DNA of 58,333 nucleotides from Bacteroidaceae bacterium. GTDB taxonomy: Bacteria; Bacteroidota; Bacteroidia; Bacteroidales; Bacteroidaceae. The stretch is taken from assembly GCA_017547585.1 (NCBI GenBank), contig JAFYPH010000059.1, positions 1 to 58,333 of the forward strand, given 5' to 3'. Below are positions 9,941 through 58,333 of the stretch, in pieces. Positions within the stretch are counted from its first letter, which is position 1. Every line of letters starts with the position of its first letter. Below the pieces are notes generated by a model. It had not been told where the DNA came from and did not search any database. It worked only from the letters and a program-made list of their open reading frames with translations. The position numbers and the translations under genes are program-made.

Positions 9941-12856
9941 TTATTCTACAAATATCTTCTCTACTTTCACATTTTTGTTGCTGAATGTAGTGTGGCGCAC
10001 GTAGATGCCTGTGGTAAGCTCCTCGAGGCTGTTGCCGACAAACAATCCCGCGAGACTGTAATATTTTACTTCAACAATCTCGGCACTGCCCTCCTCGATT
10101 CTCTTAATGCTTGTCTTTATTTCATCAATCTGATAGCCTGTGACCGTGTCGATTGTCTGGAAAATGTTGAAGCTGCTGTAGAGGTTGGTGGTGGCGGGCG
10201 AAGGACGATGCAGCAGATGCAGTCTGTCGCTGCCGTCGGGATGACGACCGAAAGTCTCGTCATCGGCGTGTGGGGTGTAGACAAGCTCGTCGCGCCACAG
10301 CAGTGTGCTATCCTGCTCGCTGTATGCGCTCAGGATTATCTTTCCACCCGATGATGGCAGTTTGAAAGGCAGGTGAAGCTGGCGCTTGTCGGGCTCTTCG
10401 TCTGCCCAAAGTATGCAGTAGCCGTGGGGCGCGATTGTGGTCTTTTCGGGTGCATTGTCAGGGAGTCTGTACAGACGCGGGTTCTCTTCGCTATTGCTTA
10501 TATAGAGCCCTGCAAGGTTAAATGCAGTGTCTGTGCGGTTGTAGAGCTCCACCCAATCGCTCTTGTCGTAATAGTCGTTGTATGTAATCTCCTTGTTTGC
10601 TCCAAGCTCGTTTATGCGCACGGCGGGAACAGGGTGACCATGCAACGAATCTATCTTTTCGAATCTGGGCACCAATTTGCACGATACATTTTCGGGTACA
10701 AACTTTATTGTAGCGTCATTGTAGTTGGGCTTGCGGTTGATGCTGCTTGCCTCGCTGCTGTAGTCGACGTTGCTTGTTGCAATAATCGTCCAATCCTTCA
10801 ATTTGTATCCGTAGGGAACATCCACCGAGAGTGTGTAGGTCTCTCCTTTGTGCATATAGCCCGAGAAGATTCCCGTGGGTACCTCTACTCCGTTTATGTA
10901 TATTGCAGTCTTTACGTTGGGCTCGATGCGCATTTTTATAGGCTCTCCGAGCGAGAAATAGGATGCAAGCTGCTCGGAATAGACTTTCTGTCTGCTCTTT
11001 GCAAAGGTCTTGTATGTTCTTGCATACGAGCCAATGTCGTAATTGCGTCCCCAGCGTTTACCATGGTAGGGAGCCTCGGTGGTGATGAGCGAGGCTATGC
11101 TGTCTATAATTGCATTGCATCGTTCGGGACGCATAATGCCACCGATGAGCGCTGTTGCATGGGCGAGGAATTTTTCGCGGAAATGGGGGTTGCCTTTAAA
11201 GCCTTGGAAGAGCTTGCCCGTGTATGCGTTCTTGTTGCTGAGTCCCGAACGATCGGTTGCCGTAAACTGGTTGTAATTGAGATTGGTGAATCCACCATCG
11301 AGGTCGAAAAGAATCCAGCGGAAACCTCCGTTGTTCCTGTTACGATAGAATTTTACATTGTTGCTCATCCAGTCGGTGTTTCCCGAAAAGCTCTGAATAA
11401 CAATGTAGTTTATATACTCGTCGAGGTCGATCAATTTTCTTATCTTTTCGAACTGTGTCTCCGTGTGATTGCCGTCGGTGACAAGCTTCACAAGCTCCTC
11501 GAGTGCAGCTTTTGTGCCGAGGACTTTATTGTCGGGAGTGTAGATGAAATCCAGCTCCTCCTTCTCGTAGCCCCAGTTGCTGTAAACATGGTGGTGATTC
11601 GAACGCTCGCGAATGTTTAGAATACCATAATACTCTCCGTTAATATAATGGATAGCAGGCTGGTAGGCAAGATAATCGACGTCCACATAGTTTGAATAGA
11701 GTGTCTGTTGCATTGCGTCGCGGAACATGGAATTGTAGTAGTCGTTTCCGCTGTTGCGCAGGTTCAGGCTCTTGAAGCGGTAATGGGGCTTCTGAGCAAA
11801 AAGCTGAACATCGAAGGAGTTCTTTCCTTCGTATTTCTTTTCGGCATTCAGCTCCAGTGATTTTTCAGGATAGGAGCGTGAGTAACCTCCGCCAATAGAG
11901 AGGTCGCACTGCTGTGTTATATATTCATCGTGGGGGTTATTGAATATTTCCACGTTGCAGGGGCGTCGCCAGTCGCGGTTCCAGTTTACTGCGTGTGAGA
12001 CTCCGTTGCCGCTGACTCCGTTCGTTCCTTCGCAATAGATGCCTATAGTGTCGTTCCACAGGTTTTTGGGATCGGTGACGATTGATACTACCGGAAGGTC
12101 GAATGAACGATCTTCAATTATATATGTGCAAGTTAATATTTCCGAGGGAATGCATCCATCCTTGAATACCCTCGCTCTTATTACTGTTGTCGTGTCGATG
12201 GTCTTGTTTCCTTTCCACACTTTGCTCTTGGCTGTCGGCTCGCTACCGTCGGTAGTATATTTAATGGTGCCATCGCCGGCCTCAATCTTTATTGTGAGAG
12301 CGTCCGAATATATGCCCGGCGCTACGTTTGCTTTCGGCTTTTTCGGGCGATTGATAGAGAAATTTCCATAGTTGTTGCTCTTTCCCGGAGAGGGGTTGAT
12401 GCATGTTGCCCACGTAGTGCCATTGTCGGATTTGCGTGCATATGAGGTCTCGGGATAGGCGTATCCGTACTCTACACTGTCGATACATTTCTTGTTGGCC
12501 GAAAATAGATAGAGTGTTGCTCCGTCGCAATCGAGCTTGAAGTTGGCATTGTTTGCGTCGAGGTCGTTGTTTCCGAAAAATATGATTTTGTATTCCCACG
12601 CCTTTATGCTGCCAATCTTTTTGGGGAGTACGAACTTCTGCGGCTGACTGTAGTCGTCGGTGAAGCTGTAGCCTGCAAGGTTAAATTCTTCACCCGTTGG
12701 ATTGTATAGCTCCACCCATCCATTGTAGTTGTATGTGGCGTCGAGCATATACGACACATTGGCTGGCATCACTTCGTTGATGATGATTCCTTGCTCTTCT
12801 GCGTGCAGTGAATGTGCAAAAATTGTCGCAAGCAGTAAAAAGTATATTTTTTTCAT
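9941..12856 (-). CDS. CotH kinase-like secreted protein with two lamin-tail domains (paralogue 1)
   Basis: 971 residues with a cleavable signal peptide ending near HAEEQ. Domains in order: lamin-tail domain (~20-145), chitobiase-C-like beta domain with YTTDGSEPT (~170-245), CotH kinase region (~250-620), a small beta repeat, a second lamin-tail domain (~745-880), and a C-terminal module ending GIYV...KIFVE that resembles a T9SS sorting domain. In the CotH region GNTDWMSNNVKFYR and WILFDLDGG fit the catalytic Asp and metal-binding DxD-type motifs of this atypical kinase fold. Expected to be exported, perhaps surface-anchored. Lies 5 bases after its paralogue; both are probably one transcript. 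Substrate unknown. Confidence 0.8.
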   Translation of the reverse strand: MKKIYFLLLATIFAHSLHAEEQGIIINEVMPANVSYMLDATYNYNGWVELYNPTGEEFNLAGYSFTDDYSQPQKFVLPKKIGSIKAWEYKIIFFGNNDLDANNANFKLDCDGATLYLFSANKKCIDSVEYGYAYPETSYARKSDNGTTWATCINPSPGKSNNYGNFSINRPKKPKANVAPGIYSDALTIKIEAGDGTIKYTTDGSEPTAKSKVWKGNKTIDTTTVIRARVFKDGCIPSEILTCTYIIEDRSFDLPVVSIVTDPKNLWNDTIGIYCEGTNGVSGNGVSHAVNWNRDWRRPCNVEIFNNPHDEYITQQCDLSIGGGYSRSYPEKSLELNAEKKYEGKNSFDVQLFAQKPHYRFKSLNLRNSGNDYYNSMFRDAMQQTLYSNYVDVDYLAYQPAIHYINGEYYGILNIRERSNHHHVYSNWGYEKEELDFIYTPDNKVLGTKAALEELVKLVTDGNHTETQFEKIRKLIDLDEYINYIVIQSFSGNTDWMSNNVKFYRNRNNGGFRWILFDLDGGFTNLNYNQFTATDRSGLSNKNAYTGKLFQGFKGNPHFREKFLAHATALIGGIMRPERCNAIIDSIASLITTEAPYHGKRWGRNYDIGSYARTYKTFAKSRQKVYSEQLASYFSLGEPIKMRIEPNVKTAIYINGVEVPTGIFSGYMHKGETYTLSVDVPYGYKLKDWTIIATSNVDYSSEASSINRKPNYNDATIKFVPENVSCKLVPRFEKIDSLHGHPVPAVRINELGANKEITYNDYYDKSDWVELYNRTDTAFNLAGLYISNSEENPRLYRLPDNAPEKTTIAPHGYCILWADEEPDKRQLHLPFKLPSSGGKIILSAYSEQDSTLLWRDELVYTPHADDETFGRHPDGSDRLHLLHRPSPATTNLYSSFNIFQTIDTVTGYQIDEIKTSIKRIEEGSAEIVEVKYYSLAGLFVGNSLEELTTGIYVRHTTFSNKNVKVEKIFVE

Positions 12857-12861
12857 AGTAA

Positions 12862-15783
12862 TTATTTTTTATTTATCTTTTCCGATTTTATGCTTCCGTC
12901 GGCGTAGGTTGTGCGACGTATGTATATGCCCTTTGTGAGCTCCTCGAAATTGTTCCCCGCTTCTATTCCTTTGAGGTTGTAATAGTTGGTGGAGATTACT
13001 TCTTTCGTTTCCTCTTCGGGCTTTTCTATTGAGGTTGTATTGTTGTCTGCCTGATAGCCTGTGATTGTGTCGGTGACGACAAATATATTGTTGCTGCTGT
13101 AGAGGTTGGTGCATCCGGGTGTTGGGGTGTGCATCACATACAGCTGATTGTTGCCGTCGGGGTAGCGTCCAAAGCTTTTCTCTTCGTTGTGCGGGGTGTA
13201 CTCTATTGCGTCGCGCCACAAGAGTATGCTGTCCGAGTCGTCGTATGCACTGAGAATCAGTCTGCAGCCTGCTGCGGGGAGCTTGAACGGCAGGTGAAGC
13301 TCACGGTTGTCGGCCTCTTCGTCTGCCCAGAGGATGCTGTAACCGTGCGGGGCGATGCGGGTCTTGCTCCTGTCGTTGTCGGGAATCCTGTACATACGCG
13401 GGTTCTCTTCGTTGTTGCTTATAAAGAGTCCTGCAATGTCGAAGATGGTGTCTGTGAGGTTGTGCAGTTCCACCCAATCACTTTTCTTGTAGTAGTCGTT
13501 GCGGTAGTTGTATTTGTTTGCTCCTACTTCGTTGATGCGAATGGCGGGTACAAGGTGTCCGTGGAGCGTGTCTATTTTCTCGAAGCACGGCTCCAGTGTG
13601 TATTTCCCGCTAACGGGCGTAAGTTCGTATGAGCTTCTGTAGACATTCGGCTTGCGTGCCCCACTCTTTTTGTTGCTTGTCTCTTTGCTGTCTTCTTCAA
13701 TTACGTTCCACTGTTTGAATTTATAGCCGTAAGGTGTCGTTACCGAAATTTTGTACTCGTCGCGGGCAAACAGATAACCATCGAACTTGCCGGTGGGAAT
13801 CTCTACTCCGTTTATATGGATGGGGGCTTTTATCTTTGACGCAATGCTCACCTCCAGCGGCTCGCCTTTCTTGAAAAGTTCGCCCAGGTAGCTAATATAT
13901 TTTTGCTGGCGTTCTTTGGCGAACTTCTTAAATTTGTTTGCGTGGCCGTCAATGTCGTAGGACTTGCTCCAGCGTTTTCTGTGGTAGGGAATTTCGTTGC
14001 TTATGAGTGCTTTTATGCTGTCGATGATGCTTGCGGCTCTCTCGTAGCGCATGGCTCCTCCTGTGATTGCCAATGCGTGATTGATGAACTTTTCCTTGAA
14101 TTCTTTCACCTCTTTAAGGTTGTTGAATATCTGTCCAACGTATGCGCTTTTGTTTGACATTGTGCCATTTAGGGCAAATGGATTGGACGATGCATCCTTG
14201 AAACCGTAATCTGTGTCGAAAAGTATCCAGCGGAAGCGGCCGTTGTCTCTGTGGCGATAGAATTTCACATTGTTGCCCATCCAGTCGCTATTTGCCGAAT
14301 ATGTTTCGATAATTACGTAGTTTATATATTCGTCGATGTCTATGTACTCAAGGGCCTTTTTGTAGTCTTTGCTCGAGCTTGCAGCATTTCTTGTGTAGGC
14401 GAGCATGGTGTTTAGCGCTACCATGTCTCCGTTGAATGCAATATTATCGTGCTGCTCTATAAGGTCGATGTTCTCTTTTTCGTATCCGCGGTTGCTGTAC
14501 ACATAGTGGTGGTTGGAGCGCTCGCGTATATTTATGATTCCGAAATATTCACCGTTAATATAATGCACAGCAGGCTGGTAGGCCTGATAGTCGATGTCTA
14601 TGATTCCTGCGTAGAAGCACTGCTGCATTGCGTCGGAGAACATTGACGAGTGAAAGTCGTTTCCGCTGTTGCGCAGGTTGATGCTTTTGAAACGGCAGTA
14701 TGGCTTCTGCACGAAAAAGCGGGTGAGGAAGGCATTCTTTCCTTCGTATTTTTTCTCGGCATTGAGCTCCAGTGATTTTTCGTCGTATGCGCGTGACCAT
14801 CCTCCGCCTATCGAGGCTTCGCACTGCTGCGAGAAATAGTCATCGTACTTTCCGTTGAATATTTCCACGTTTACAGGACGTTTCCAGGGCATATTCCAAT
14901 TGGCTGGATAGCTTACGCTGTTTCCGGGGATTCCGTTTGTTCCTGTGCAATAGATTCCTATCGTGTCGTTCCAGAAATTGTCGGGGTCGGTAACGATTGA
15001 TATCACCGGAAGGTCAAAGTCGCGCTCTTTCTCGATTATATATGTGCAGGTAACTATTTCCGAGGGGATGCAGCCGCTTTTATATGTACGCAATCTCAAG
15101 GTTGTCGTTTCGCTTATTCCCTTGTATCCGCTCCATATTGCGCTGCTCTCTGTCGGCTCGCTGCCATCGGTAGTGTATCTTATTGTTCCGTTCGCTGCGG
15201 TGATGTTAAGCACAAACGAGCGTTTGTAGATTCCGGGCTCGATGCTCACTTTGGGTGTTTCTGCTCTTTTAACAGAGTATTTGCCGTCGGCGTTGCTTCT
15301 TCCGGGTGTCGGTGTCAAGCATGTGGCCCAAGAGCCAATGCCGTCAGTCTGGCGGGCATAGGAGATATTCGGGTAGGCGTATCCATACTCTACACTGCTG
15401 ACTAGCGTCGCTGCGCGAGAGAATAGATAGAGTGTCGCTCCATCGCAGTCGAGCTTGAAGTTTGCGTGCCTGCCGTCGAGGTCGTTGTTGTCGAAAAATA
15501 TTATTTTATACTCGTGCGGAGCAATTTTCCCCATATTTTCGGGGAACACGAACTTGCGTGGTAATCCTGCTTCGTCTGTGAAACTGTAGCCGGCGAGGTC
15601 AATCGTCTCTTCCGAGGCATTGAACAGCTCTACCCATGCACCGTAATTGTAAGAGTGGTCGAAAATGTACGACACATTTGCGGGCATCACCTCATTGATG
15701 ACAATGTCTTTTTCTGCAGCAAATATGTTGTTGCTTAATATCGAAACTGCAAATGTCAGGAATATGTACAGGCATTGTCTCAT
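12862..15783 (-). CDS. CotH kinase-like secreted protein with two lamin-tail domains (paralogue 2)
   Basis: 973 residues from the chosen Met (MRQCLYIFL...), which gives a clean signal peptide; an in-frame Met 15 codons upstream falls inside an inverted repeat. The domain order is the same as in the downstream neighbour: lamin-tail, chitobiase-C-like, CotH kinase (SANSDWMGNNVKFYR and WILFDTDYGF retained), lamin-tail, and a T9SS-like C-terminus with GIYIRRTTY. The two proteins are similar along their whole length, so a tandem duplication is the simplest origin. Both keep the CotH motifs, so neither looks decayed. Confidence 0.8.
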   Translation of the reverse strand: MRQCLYIFLTFAVSILSNNIFAAEKDIVINEVMPANVSYIFDHSYNYGAWVELFNASEETIDLAGYSFTDEAGLPRKFVFPENMGKIAPHEYKIIFFDNNDLDGRHANFKLDCDGATLYLFSRAATLVSSVEYGYAYPNISYARQTDGIGSWATCLTPTPGRSNADGKYSVKRAETPKVSIEPGIYKRSFVLNITAANGTIRYTTDGSEPTESSAIWSGYKGISETTTLRLRTYKSGCIPSEIVTCTYIIEKERDFDLPVISIVTDPDNFWNDTIGIYCTGTNGIPGNSVSYPANWNMPWKRPVNVEIFNGKYDDYFSQQCEASIGGGWSRAYDEKSLELNAEKKYEGKNAFLTRFFVQKPYCRFKSINLRNSGNDFHSSMFSDAMQQCFYAGIIDIDYQAYQPAVHYINGEYFGIINIRERSNHHYVYSNRGYEKENIDLIEQHDNIAFNGDMVALNTMLAYTRNAASSSKDYKKALEYIDIDEYINYVIIETYSANSDWMGNNVKFYRHRDNGRFRWILFDTDYGFKDASSNPFALNGTMSNKSAYVGQIFNNLKEVKEFKEKFINHALAITGGAMRYERAASIIDSIKALISNEIPYHRKRWSKSYDIDGHANKFKKFAKERQQKYISYLGELFKKGEPLEVSIASKIKAPIHINGVEIPTGKFDGYLFARDEYKISVTTPYGYKFKQWNVIEEDSKETSNKKSGARKPNVYRSSYELTPVSGKYTLEPCFEKIDTLHGHLVPAIRINEVGANKYNYRNDYYKKSDWVELHNLTDTIFDIAGLFISNNEENPRMYRIPDNDRSKTRIAPHGYSILWADEEADNRELHLPFKLPAAGCRLILSAYDDSDSILLWRDAIEYTPHNEEKSFGRYPDGNNQLYVMHTPTPGCTNLYSSNNIFVVTDTITGYQADNNTTSIEKPEEETKEVISTNYYNLKGIEAGNNFEELTKGIYIRRTTYADGSIKSEKINKK

Positions 15784-56647: not shown

Positions 56648-56669
56648 GATTCTATCGAAAATATTTGTG

Positions 56670-56704
56670 GCGCGGATTGCAATGTGCAGTCCGCGCTTTT
56701 TTTT
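56670..56704 (+). terminator. Intrinsic terminator of htpG
   Basis: A 12-bp GC-rich stem with one G-U pair (56670-56681 with 56685-56696), 3-base loop and an eight-T run, 22 bases after the htpG stop. It separates htpG from the lysis-like cassette. Confidence 0.92.
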
Positions 56705-56757: not shown

Positions 56758-56839
56758 CATTACCGCAAAATGTGAAAGTGTAAATTCTGCAAACTGCTTC
56801 GTTGGTAGTCAGCCTTTCTTTGCAGTAAAATATATTATC

Positions 56840-57325
56840 ATGAACGATTTTGTAACTTTTACAAAGGCTGCTATCATAGGGCTGTTGTCGGAAATGCTTG
56901 CCTTTTTTGCTCCCATAGAGAATAATTTCATTGCTTTAGTGTGGCTCTTTGCGATGAATTTTTTCTTTGGACTTTTGAGTGACATTTTGCGAGGCAACGA
57001 TTTTTCCATGCGCAAGGCTATTGCCTGTCTCACCCATGCGACAATGTTCTTTGCACTCTGCGCTTCGCTCTATGGAATCGGCCATTTTCAGAATGTGTGC
57101 GAGGAGATGCTCAACCAATGTGTATCCTCCTTCTGCTGGATTCTTGTCTATTGCTACTCTACTAACATTGTGCGCAACATACGCTGTGTGCTGCGCACCG
57201 AGACTCCTGCTTACAGGACTTTGGATCTTCTCTACAATGGACTTACGCTCGCATTTGTAAAGGCACTGCCTTTTGTCTCGGAAATACTTAAGCAAAGAAA
57301 GGAGGACTATCATGCGAACAAGTGA
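56840..57325 (+). CDS. Holin-like membrane protein
   Basis: 161 residues from MNDFVTFTKAA, chosen because upstream in-frame Met codons give an unlikely Cys-rich leader. Three to four hydrophobic segments (about 8-26, 28-50, 60-80 and 90-110) and a basic C-terminal tail. Size and pattern recall the phage holin 4 family, which makes membrane lesions that let endolysin escape. It overlaps the lysozyme gene by 14 bases. The holin call rests on topology and this neighbourhood, not a strict motif. Confidence 0.65.
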   Translation: MNDFVTFTKAAIIGLLSEMLAFFAPIENNFIALVWLFAMNFFFGLLSDILRGNDFSMRKAIACLTHATMFFALCASLYGIGHFQNVCEEMLNQCVSSFCWILVYCYSTNIVRNIRCVLRTETPAYRTLDLLYNGLTLAFVKALPFVSEILKQRKEDYHANK

Positions 57326-57773
57326 AAAGGGACTGCAGAGTATCATTGCTTTCGAGGGTATTGAACTTAATGCCTACCGCTGCCCTGCGGGCATTTGGAC
57401 AATAGGTGTCGGGCACACAGGCGACGTCGATGGTGTTCCCGTTGTGCGGGGAATGAAAATCACAGAAGGCGAGGCAATGGCTCTTCTAAGAGAGGATGTC
57501 AAGCGTTTCGAGAAATACCTGAACAAGCAGCCTTTCATCGGTAGCCTGACTCAAGGAATGTTCGACGCGCTCGTGAGTTTCATCTTCAATGTAGGAATTG
57601 CAGCATTTGCAGCATCTACAATGCGTCGGAAACTATGCTCCAATGCAGCGCGCGAAGATGTCGCAAAGGAATTCCCCAAATGGGTGTTCGGCACAGTCAA
57701 TGGCAAGAAGGAGCGGCTCGCGGGCCTAGTGAAGCGGCGCGAGGCCGAACGACAAATGTTCCTTTCCGTTTAA
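57312..57773 (+). CDS. GH24 phage-type lysozyme (endolysin)
   Basis: 153 residues, cleaves glycan strands of peptidoglycan. Catalytic pattern E-8-C-5-T: Glu15 (FEG), Cys24 (YRCPAG) and Thr30 (WTIGVGHT). T4 lysozyme has Asp where Cys24 stands; E-C-T triads occur naturally and can be active. The C-terminal lobe has LTQGMFDALVSFIFNVG and RREAERQMFL, typical of the family. No signal peptide, so it needs the holin to reach the wall. A strong Shine-Dalgarno AAAGGAGGA (57298-57306) precedes the start inside the holin gene. Confidence 0.92.
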   Translation: MRTSEKGLQSIIAFEGIELNAYRCPAGIWTIGVGHTGDVDGVPVVRGMKITEGEAMALLREDVKRFEKYLNKQPFIGSLTQGMFDALVSFIFNVGIAAFAASTMRRKLCSNAAREDVAKEFPKWVFGTVNGKKERLAGLVKRREAERQMFLSV

Positions 57774-57790
57774 TCTTTAGTAGCAGCAGT

Positions 57791-58159
57791 ATGAAAATAT
57801 TTCTTTTACTTTCGGCGTTTATTTTCGCCGCCTGCACCACTACAAAATATGTACCTGTAGAGAGTGTAAAGGTGGATAGTGTCTACGTGGCGAAAGCGCA
57901 GCGCGACAGCATATTCGAGCGCGACAGTGTCTTTGTTGCCGTTAAGGCCGATACAGTCTTTTTCTCCCGTGTGCAGTACCGCTACCGCGACAGGATTGTG
58001 CGCGACACTGTAAATGTTCTCAGCGTCGATACTATCACCAAGATTGTAGAAGTAGAAAAGAGGCTCACTTTCTGGCAGCAGAAAAAGCTGCAATTGGGAA
58101 CGATTGCTATGTGGCTCCTTCCGCTGCTCGCCGGAGTTTTTCTCTTTAGAAAATTATAA
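57791..58159 (+). CDS. Lipoprotein with C-terminal membrane anchor, u-spanin-like
   Basis: 122 residues. The start at 57791 gives a lipoprotein signal (LLLSAFIFAAC, Cys15). The mature part has about 85 residues of alternating polar and beta-branched residues with repeated R/K-D-S/T-V units (QRDSIFERDSVF, VRDTVNV), then a membrane helix at ~103-119 and the basic tail FRKL. An outer-membrane lipid anchor plus an inner-membrane helix in one chain is the defining layout of unimolecular spanins, which fuse the two membranes in the last step of phage lysis. Starts 17 bases after the lysozyme stop. Confidence 0.65.
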   Translation: MKIFLLLSAFIFAACTTTKYVPVESVKVDSVYVAKAQRDSIFERDSVFVAVKADTVFFSRVQYRYRDRIVRDTVNVLSVDTITKIVEVEKRLTFWQQKKLQLGTIAMWLLPLLAGVFLFRKL

Positions 58160-58202
58160 TCTCGTAGAATACAAAAAAGGCTGCTAATCTTTTAATGAAG
58201 TG

Positions 58203-58236
58203 AACCCCAAAAGTTAGACAAAAAACTTTTGGGGTT
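58203..58236 (+). other. Stem-loop at the tip of the insertion sequence
   Basis: Arms AACCCCAAAAGTT and AACTTTTGGGGTT pair perfectly over 13 bp around an 8-base loop, ending 6 bases before the orfA start codon. Transcripts entering from outside would fold here; this could stop read-through or mask the start, as described for some insertion sequences. Confidence 0.7.
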
Positions 58237-58242
58237 TATTTT

Positions 58243-58333
58243 ATGCGTAAGAAACACGATTATTCAGCATTGCTAAAATATATGCATATGCTTGAAGAAG
58301 GTTATTCCATCAATTACATTCATACTAGGTATG
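58243..58333 (+). CDS. IS3-family OrfA, N-terminal fragment
   Basis: Thirty codons from MRKKHDYSALLKYMHMLEEG to the window edge. The start of a helix-turn-helix (GYSINYIHTRYG-type) fits the OrfA of IS3/IS150 elements, the DNA-binding part that joins OrfB by programmed frameshifting. The rest is outside the window. Confidence 0.8.
   Translation, partial: MRKKHDYSALLKYMHMLEEGYSINYIHTRY

Follow-up and report, generated by a model that had tools for sequence, protein, structure and literature searches.

Probable Lysis Gene Trio Downstream of htpG

The DNA stretch analysed here (the window, 58,333 nucleotides) is the entire contig C57 of the Bacteroidaceae genome G000 (2.26 Mb, 65 contigs, 85% complete). 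At its right end, downstream of htpG, there are three plus-strand open reading frames (ORFs) that encode a holin-like membrane protein, a lysozyme and a spanin-like lipoprotein; the first and second genes overlap by 14 bases and the second and third are separated by a 17-base gap. Judged from its sequence, the trio is very probably a lysis cassette, and the promoter-like element in front of it is of a type also found at phage-derived capsid, portal and tail-type loci. The following features are located in this part of the window:

56669..56697, plus strand: terminator-like hairpin between htpG and the cassette (13-pair stem, T run; consensus scan only)
56783..56823, plus strand: promoter-like element AATTCTGCAAACT-N19-TTTCTTTGC, ending 16 bases upstream of the holin ATG (matrix match of 29.26 bits)
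56840..57325, plus strand: holin-like membrane protein, 161 amino acids (aa), 3-4 helices (weak family matches, hydropathy)
57312..57773, plus strand: GH24 endolysin (lysozyme), 153 aa (PF00959, phrog_7)
57791..58159, plus strand: unimolecular-spanin-like lipoprotein, 122 aa (lipobox-type Cys15, periplasmic domain, C-terminal transmembrane helix)
58196..58333, plus strand: end of a multi-copy insertion sequence (IS; IS3-type by eye), cut by the contig end and outside the system (repeated at other contig starts)

An earlier sequence-only reading of this DNA had described three genes with the same overlap and gap, encoding a multi-helix membrane protein, a signal-less GH24 lysozyme and a lipoprotein with a C-terminal helix, flanked by htpG with its own terminator on the left and by an IS element on the right. 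This observation is confirmed: the ORFs lie at the coordinates it gave, the protein types are borne out by hydropathy and the PF00959 match, the hairpin is present (although the scan found two such sites versus a mean of 2.0 in shuffles), and IS-like sequence extends from ~58196 to the contig end.

The identity of the middle gene as a lysozyme gene is, on its sequence, certain. The predicted product matches PF00959 (GH24, Phage_lysozyme) with 133.6 bits at a cut-off of 22.3 (Pfam E-value of 6e-39) and the phrog_7 endolysins with an E-value of 1.3e-57. Residues E15-8aa-C24-5aa-T30 fit the E-8aa-D/C-5aa-T spacing, which is the catalytic spacing of GH24 endolysins. No signal sequence or N-terminal helix was detected in the lysozyme by hydropathy; its single hydrophobic segment is located at residues 83-101.

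The first gene can also be read as a longer in-frame ORF of 213 aa from a GTG at 56684; the aligned homologues begin at or near the ATG at 56840, not at the GTG. Hydropathy analysis of the 161-aa product reveals three helices at a strict cut-off and four at a looser one. It matches phrog_15037, a family of unknown function (E-value of 1.3e-10), and scores 16.3 bits against Phage_holin_4_1, which is under the gathering cut-off of 22.2; the protein is therefore classed here as holin-like and not as a member of the family. Phage_holin_4_1 was matched at E-values of 0.1 or less by all nine aligned members of the holin-like group (the best at 2e-4). Since these two were the best families, an origin of the first gene in an unrelated transporter family, which the sequence-only reading had allowed for, finds no support.

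The third gene product has an N-terminal and a C-terminal helix (by hydropathy and eye) and a lipobox-type Cys15, which is its sole cysteine; its relatives in G153, G151, G177 and locus L015 have one more. Family searches with the lipoprotein produced no convincing match, with the Rz-like spanin family phrog_6073 appearing at an E-value of 0.12.

In the rest of the window, no phage gene was recognised by eye among ORFs of at least 90 aa (left part) or at least 75 aa (right part), which agrees with the earlier statement that structural, replication and integrase genes are not in view. None of these three gene types was recognised by eye beside the lysis genes in the window or in locus L016 of G153, with the DNA beyond the window's IS judged by colinearity alone. 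Phage-derived genes are present elsewhere in G000. Among the contigs fetched, the IS end is also found at the starts of contigs C7, C13, C14 and C51 of the same genome, with 127-128 of 134 bases identical. Thus, a multi-copy IS breaks the G000 assembly.

Dispersed Phage-Derived Loci and Their Common Promoter Element

Relatives of the holin-like protein led to a cluster of ~12 kb that is present in other species of the genus and contains genes for TerL, small proteins, a putative scaffold, capsid, adaptor, a 93-aa protein, holin, spanin, a ~960-aa protein and a ~140-aa protein (below, the head locus). The portal gene, traced through a related prophage of G130, occupies a separate locus, together with a gene for a giant protein (1454-1887 aa in the loci read). 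A search of 44 genomes of the genus retrieved capsid and TerL in 43 genomes each, the ~960-aa gene in 42 and portal in 41, with a single match per genome save in a few. The capsid (325 bits) and TerL (572 bits) of G181 lie in a prophage-type region, and so the fixed type of each is present in 42 of 44 genomes. In a 201-genome sample of the family, capsid was matched in 13 genus members and in seven of the 188 other genomes, the latter at no more than 369 bits.

TerL belongs to phrog_2 (1e-21); in G000 it is one intact frame with TerL motifs. The G000 portal is a member of P22_portal (3e-37, above the cut-off). Matches of capsid to SU10_MCP (5e-4) and of adaptor to SU10_adaptor are weak and under the cut-off. 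The ~960-aa protein corresponds to phrog_32516, whose function is unknown; our guess is that this protein, ~1050 aa long in G000, is a tail protein or tail hub. Comparison of capsid with phage records gave three matches of 24-25% identity. A capsid profile yielded 83 pattern matches in IMG/VR, of which none was confirmed, in what was a weak test based on two short patterns; a profile of the ~960-aa protein retrieved 12 viral contigs.

In G000, these parts are spread over four contigs: C46 has the head locus, C59 the ~1050-aa homologue, C51 the portal and C57 the lysis trio. In the head loci of G000, G153, G177, G161, G151 and G175, the 93-aa gene is followed directly by the ~140-aa gene, with no holin, spanin or ~960-aa gene between them. 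The holin gene adjoins the ~960-aa gene in 25 of 28 loci of other genomes and is not found there in G157, G181 and G184. The chromosomal sites of the loci vary by subgroup, with ATP synthase genes as neighbours in some cases and other genes elsewhere. Inspection by eye of the ORFs listed for the head, portal and tail-type loci revealed neither an integrase nor a replication module; for one head locus, one portal locus and several individual proteins, families were scanned as well. In G130, a related prophage (C6, ~34000-68000; L233, L237 and L262) is present in addition to the fixed loci of the same genome; its genes include capsid, TerL, portal, a GH24 lysozyme and, in two separate frames, a ~960-aa-type gene.

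Between the head locus and a thioesterase-like gene, contig C46 is colinear with G153; past that gene, it runs into IS-like sequence, with which the contig ends. The G153 trio is located a few kilobases past the thioesterase-like gene, about 25 kb from the capsid gene. The DNA past the window's IS is therefore probably ordinary host sequence for ~25 kb up to the capsid/terminase locus, the join of C57 and C46 being inferred from this colinearity. Phage genes immediately past the IS, with which the sequence-only reading had reckoned, are thus not expected, while a capsid/terminase locus probably follows at that distance.

Distances between capsid sequences correlate with those between HtpG sequences (r = 0.933), as do portal distances (r = 0.693; 28 genomes each), both with p = 0.0001, the smallest value possible for the permutation. 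The comparison used the 28 of 44 genomes with both sequences; the HtpG fragment of G161 and the prophage copy of G130 were dropped, and the near-identical genomes G183/G167 and G116/G164 were both kept. For the G000-G153 pair, the ratio of nonsynonymous to synonymous distances (dN/dS) is 0.032 for capsid and 0.033 for portal, the latter at a near-saturated dS of 2.6.

As can be seen from their upstream regions, these loci have a common element, AWTTCnGCAACCT-N19-TTnCTTTGC, whose right half resembles the Bacteroidales -7 element. A search of head loci of other species with a free spacer (18-27) returned a spacer of exactly 19 in 24 of 28 cases. A matrix was built from these 24 head-locus sites, all from outside the window's clade and from another locus type than the trio; two of 30 head loci (no anchoring ORF) and four of 28 (poor first-pass sites) were left out, and all six later scored 28-37 bits. 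When both strands of the window were scanned with the matrix, the site in front of the trio ranked first with 29.26 bits, followed by a site of 14.87 bits. Its score was matched in none of 200 dinucleotide shuffles of the window (shuffle maximum of 22.47 bits).

In other parts of G000, the matrix detected sites of 31.4 bits at the head locus, 30.8 bits at the portal locus and 18.9 bits at the ~1050-aa locus. The corresponding loci of G153 were found likewise, with 28.1 bits for its trio, and the trio operon of G151 scored 24.9 bits. Sites of at least 22 bits are present in all 36 head loci (24 of which are the training set, with the six others outside the clade at 28-37 bits) and sites of at least 23 bits in all nine portal-locus starts. 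The best sites of prophage lysis regions reached 14.7 (L015), 9.4 (L234) and 11.2 bits (L233). Background in G000 amounted to one site of at least 16 bits in 339,805 further bases (up to 20 kb from each of 20 contigs). In 1.98 Mb of genus and family loci, there were 86 sites of at least 18 bits, and as sorted by eye, only one of them was not at phage-derived loci, an adjoining regulator gene or the trio; these loci overlap, so that sites repeat, and they were picked for phage genes, which makes the sample biased. Since the trio has the promoter type of the capsid, portal and tail-type loci, we consider it highly likely, on sequence grounds, that the trio is coregulated with the capsid loci.

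The G000 background site, which is also the exceptional site of the wider scan, scores 22.7 bits (L378:13401-13441, on C1), with 23 bases between its end and a 219-aa gene (13465-14124) whose function is unknown. This gene is a candidate for a further member of the regulon.

A 209-aa helix-turn-helix protein whose S24 (LexA/CI-type) domain scores above the cut-off is encoded beside the head locus (L222:13456-14085); among the loci compared, relatives of this protein are encoded close to head or ~960-aa loci in 14 further genomes. Divergent from its gene is a 144-aa gene (L222:12806-13240) with its own promoter copy of 26.6 bits. The pair suggests damage-responsive or phage-like control of the system. 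Genes that look by eye like those of sigma factors are located downstream of the trio in G153 (L016:11440-11934) and G151 (L017:10921-11220 and 11753-12301), and the product of one such gene could be the reader of the unusual promoter.

Conservation of the Trio and Exchange with Phages

The three genes occur in the order seen in the window at three further loci, L015, L016 and L017. Locus L016, from G153 (metagenome-assembled genome SIG128), has the order gyrA-clpC-htpG-holin-lysozyme-spanin, with apparent host genes (named by eye) on both sides. Downstream of htpG, G177 has a 165-aa gene and then holin and spanin; the contig of G161 stops 200 bases past htpG. The comparison of htpG downstream regions proposed by the sequence-only reading thus yields a full trio in G153 and a set without lysozyme in G177. 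The trio of G151 (L017) is located downstream of a 504-aa gene without family match, for which a tail fibre role is a guess, and adjoins a divergent ~960-aa homologue. The second trio of G153 (L015) belongs to a prophage-type end composed of leucine-rich-repeat and PLC-like genes (by eye), holin, lysozyme, spanin and a tyrosine integrase that is 79-80% identical to integrases of G167 and G163 prophages.

The sequence-only reading had offered two alternatives, a prophage edge or an orphan lysis module, and its interpretation is partly supported. The module recurs behind htpG in G153 among host genes, in keeping with the second alternative. A prophage edge fits poorly, as the same cassette at htpG in a second species is flanked by host genes, and we set this option aside on the strength of the syntenic copy in L016.

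Between G000 and G153, the holin has a dN/dS of 0.106 at a dS of 1.01, which is near the dS of HtpG (0.94) and capsid (0.92); dN/dS is 0.187 for the spanin and 0.022 for HtpG. The lysozyme pair has saturated synonymous sites and hence no dN/dS. Holin matches were found in 12 of 151 genomes of the family in a first survey and in 38 of 44 genomes of the genus. In the holin tree, the window type and the cluster type form two well-supported groups with long branches between them. Most of the genus has holin and spanin in the head locus; the window's clade has an htpG-linked cassette that exchanges parts with prophages.

Single-protein searches of IMG/VR with the holin and the lipoprotein revealed no relatives, and a holin profile retrieved four contigs. 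On one of these, viral contig L364 (9568-10963), genes for a lipoprotein, a holin and a GH24-like lysozyme stand in a row (by eye), in an order unlike that of the window.

In 14 of 44 genomes (L346-L359), a lone phage-type endolysin gene (phrog_873-like, ~133 aa) was observed between gyrA and trmD, with no phage gene seen in these ~3-kb loci. Its upstream regions look motif-like by eye; a matrix site was found in three of 14 (11.8-15.5 bits), with none of at least 8 bits in the other 11, and a link to the shared promoter is only suggestive. Of the six subclade genomes, five are without this endolysin, with a distant one located elsewhere in G177; many other genomes lack it too, so that there is no clean complementation of the trio lysozyme.

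Proposed System, Rival Explanations and Known Relatives

We propose that the trio serves as the lysis locus of a system that resembles gene transfer agents (GTAs), stems from a domesticated podovirus, is spread over multiple loci and is inherited vertically, and consider this reading probable. It builds on what was observed: the genes present and their dispersion, their occurrence across the genus, the congruence of capsid with one housekeeping gene, purifying selection and the shared promoter sequence. That the system forms particles packaging mostly host DNA appears somewhat likelier than the contrary. With a comparable degree of confidence, this may be the first GTA of Bacteroidota: a P22/podovirus-like system dispersed over at least four loci, with one phage-inherited promoter type defining the regulon and with a swappable lysis module.

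We infer coordinated use of the promoters, particle formation, packaging of host DNA and lysis by the trio, and the mechanism could be as follows. A regulator would fire the shared promoter at all loci together. The head locus would supply the putative scaffold, capsid, adaptor and TerL; the portal locus, the portal and the giant protein (for which the role of an internal protein is guessed); and the third locus, the ~1050-aa putative tail protein (role likewise guessed). TerL would pack DNA into heads. Once the htpG-linked operon is on, the holin would open the inner membrane, the signal-less lysozyme would then cut peptidoglycan and the spanin-like lipoprotein would join the membranes, so that the cell bursts and particles are freed.

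Several points weigh against the proposed system. It is known here from genes and sequences, and the holin and spanin assignments are based on architecture and sub-threshold matches. The motif was first spotted by eye in an upstream set that contained the region of the trio. In a control scan of 2.14 Mb of other loci, chance sites of 18.7 and 20.2 bits were found in the unrelated cyanobacterial loci L020 and L052, which puts the chance rate at the 18-bit level at roughly one site per Mb. The site of the ~960-aa gene of G177 is poor (9.7 bits), and this 98% complete genome has no lysozyme at htpG and a trio promoter site of 10.6 bits. The lysozyme and spanin of G153 are nearer to those of its own prophage copy (L015) than to those of the window, from which it follows that parts of the cassette have been swapped with phages. 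The idea that the trio is kept without a phage holds at htpG of G153 but not genus-wide: lysozyme relatives are present in seven of 44 genomes, in four of these in prophage surroundings only. Finally, viral contigs with a ~960-aa relative have the same promoter type (27.0 bits in L367, 12480-12520; 23.5 bits in L371, 6452-6492; 20.0 bits in L369, 12080-12120). The promoter thus probably comes from the ancestral phage, which makes its presence a weaker proof of present-day use; these three sites are possibly a view of the late promoters of that phage.

The strongest rival, which we nevertheless regard as unlikely, is that the trio is the remnant of an ordinary prophage once located behind htpG (an L015-like lysis end or a phage with the shared promoter type), whose other genes have been lost by deletion, with the trio now drifting or retained by chance. 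Indeed, the nearest relative outside the htpG loci is the prophage-type end L015 with its tyrosine integrase, and the promoter type of the related phage contigs raises this option slightly and lowers the GTA-like reading slightly. A remnant accords poorly with the intact frames, the holin dN/dS of 0.106 over a synonymous distance of ~1 and the same locus in two more species, as well as with the sites of 29.3 and 28.1 bits that are kept in G000 and G153 when none is found at the prophage trio.

A little less likely still, the dispersed loci could be a defence or killing device (a capsid-based bacteriocin or altruistic anti-phage lysis), with the trio killing the producer for release. Some domesticated phages are bacteriocins, and lysis and capsid genes by themselves do not separate DNA transfer from killing. 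However, tailocins generally do without TerL and portal, and this DNA-packaging pair is well kept here, with the G000 TerL frame intact.

It is improbable that the shared element is a general stress promoter of the genus and its presence at both trio and capsid loci incidental. The resemblance of the right half to the Bacteroidales -7 element would suit such a promoter, as would the site ahead of the 219-aa gene, but that site is the sole one of at least 16 bits in the G000 background and the sole off-system one in the 1.98-Mb scan; the wider scan has thus lowered this possibility.

Release of membrane vesicles or proteins by explosive lysis, with no particle involved, is very improbable: explosive lysis has been described as a source of vesicles in other bacteria, but no secretion cargo was recognised near the trio, and capsid, portal and tail-type loci have the same promoter type as the trio. 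Because of this shared promoter type, the proteins, vesicles or bacteriocin suggested as cargo by the sequence-only reading are less likely than a phage-like particle.

Horizontal transfer in gut and rumen Bacteroidales is usually ascribed to conjugation and ordinary phages. If the GTA-like reading is true, a genus-wide, host-controlled particle would be an extra route of transfer in these bacteria, and an example of a phage dismantled over the chromosome yet kept as one regulon. The shared promoter would offer a handle for listing the parts of the system, finding its regulator and testing induction. Lone lysis cassettes should not be written off as prophage debris.

Among the papers listed in the literature searches, as judged by title and abstract opening (including PMC12946183 and PMC11476376; preprints and most subscription papers were outside the coverage), no GTA was described in Bacteroidota. 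Lateral transduction in Bacteroides is reported in PMC12946183, which also assigns 23 of 25 GTA events to Gram-positive families. The nearest described case is FpGTA of Faecalibacterium, which is podovirus-like, as is the proposed system, and has a locus I (TerL, portal, scaffold, capsid) in 12 of 12 genomes examined. Its second locus, ~125 kb away in one strain, contains tail genes, holin and endolysin; section 9 of the paper mentions no integrase (PMC12946183). Particles and packaged DNA of FpGTA were shown experimentally (PMC12946183), whereas the window system is known from its genes; the two are likened by layout. FpGTA has a Gram-positive host, with no spanin mentioned, in contrast to the Bacteroidales host, at least four loci, spanin-like protein and common promoter motif of the window system.

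The proposed system would also resemble RcGTA and CcGTA in that particles are phage-derived, the producer lyses and lysis functions can sit far from the structural cluster. The LypABC lysis genes of Caulobacter are located ~2.4 Mb from the structural cluster of CcGTA (PMC13236601), and RcGTA uses phage-derived holins and endolysins (PMC7296036). RcGTA is siphovirus-like and Caulobacter lysis is CARD-NLR-like, whereas the window set is a classical-looking holin/endolysin/spanin trio.

Lysis modules of prophages of the genus (L015, L234-L236) are similar to that of the window in having a holin-type protein, a GH24 lysozyme and a lipoprotein close together, with clear homologues in the same order in L015. 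They differ in their position beside tail-type genes and a tyrosine integrase, and L015 and L234 have no promoter site of the shared type. At the level of a single protein, the window lipoprotein is built like unimolecular spanins, of which T1 gp11 is an example, with an N-terminal lipobox and a C-terminal transmembrane helix. In a survey, 58 of 58 such proteins are without periplasmic cysteine (PMC6139136), which agrees with the window protein but not with its four relatives that have an additional cysteine. This likeness is one of description, without a significant family match.

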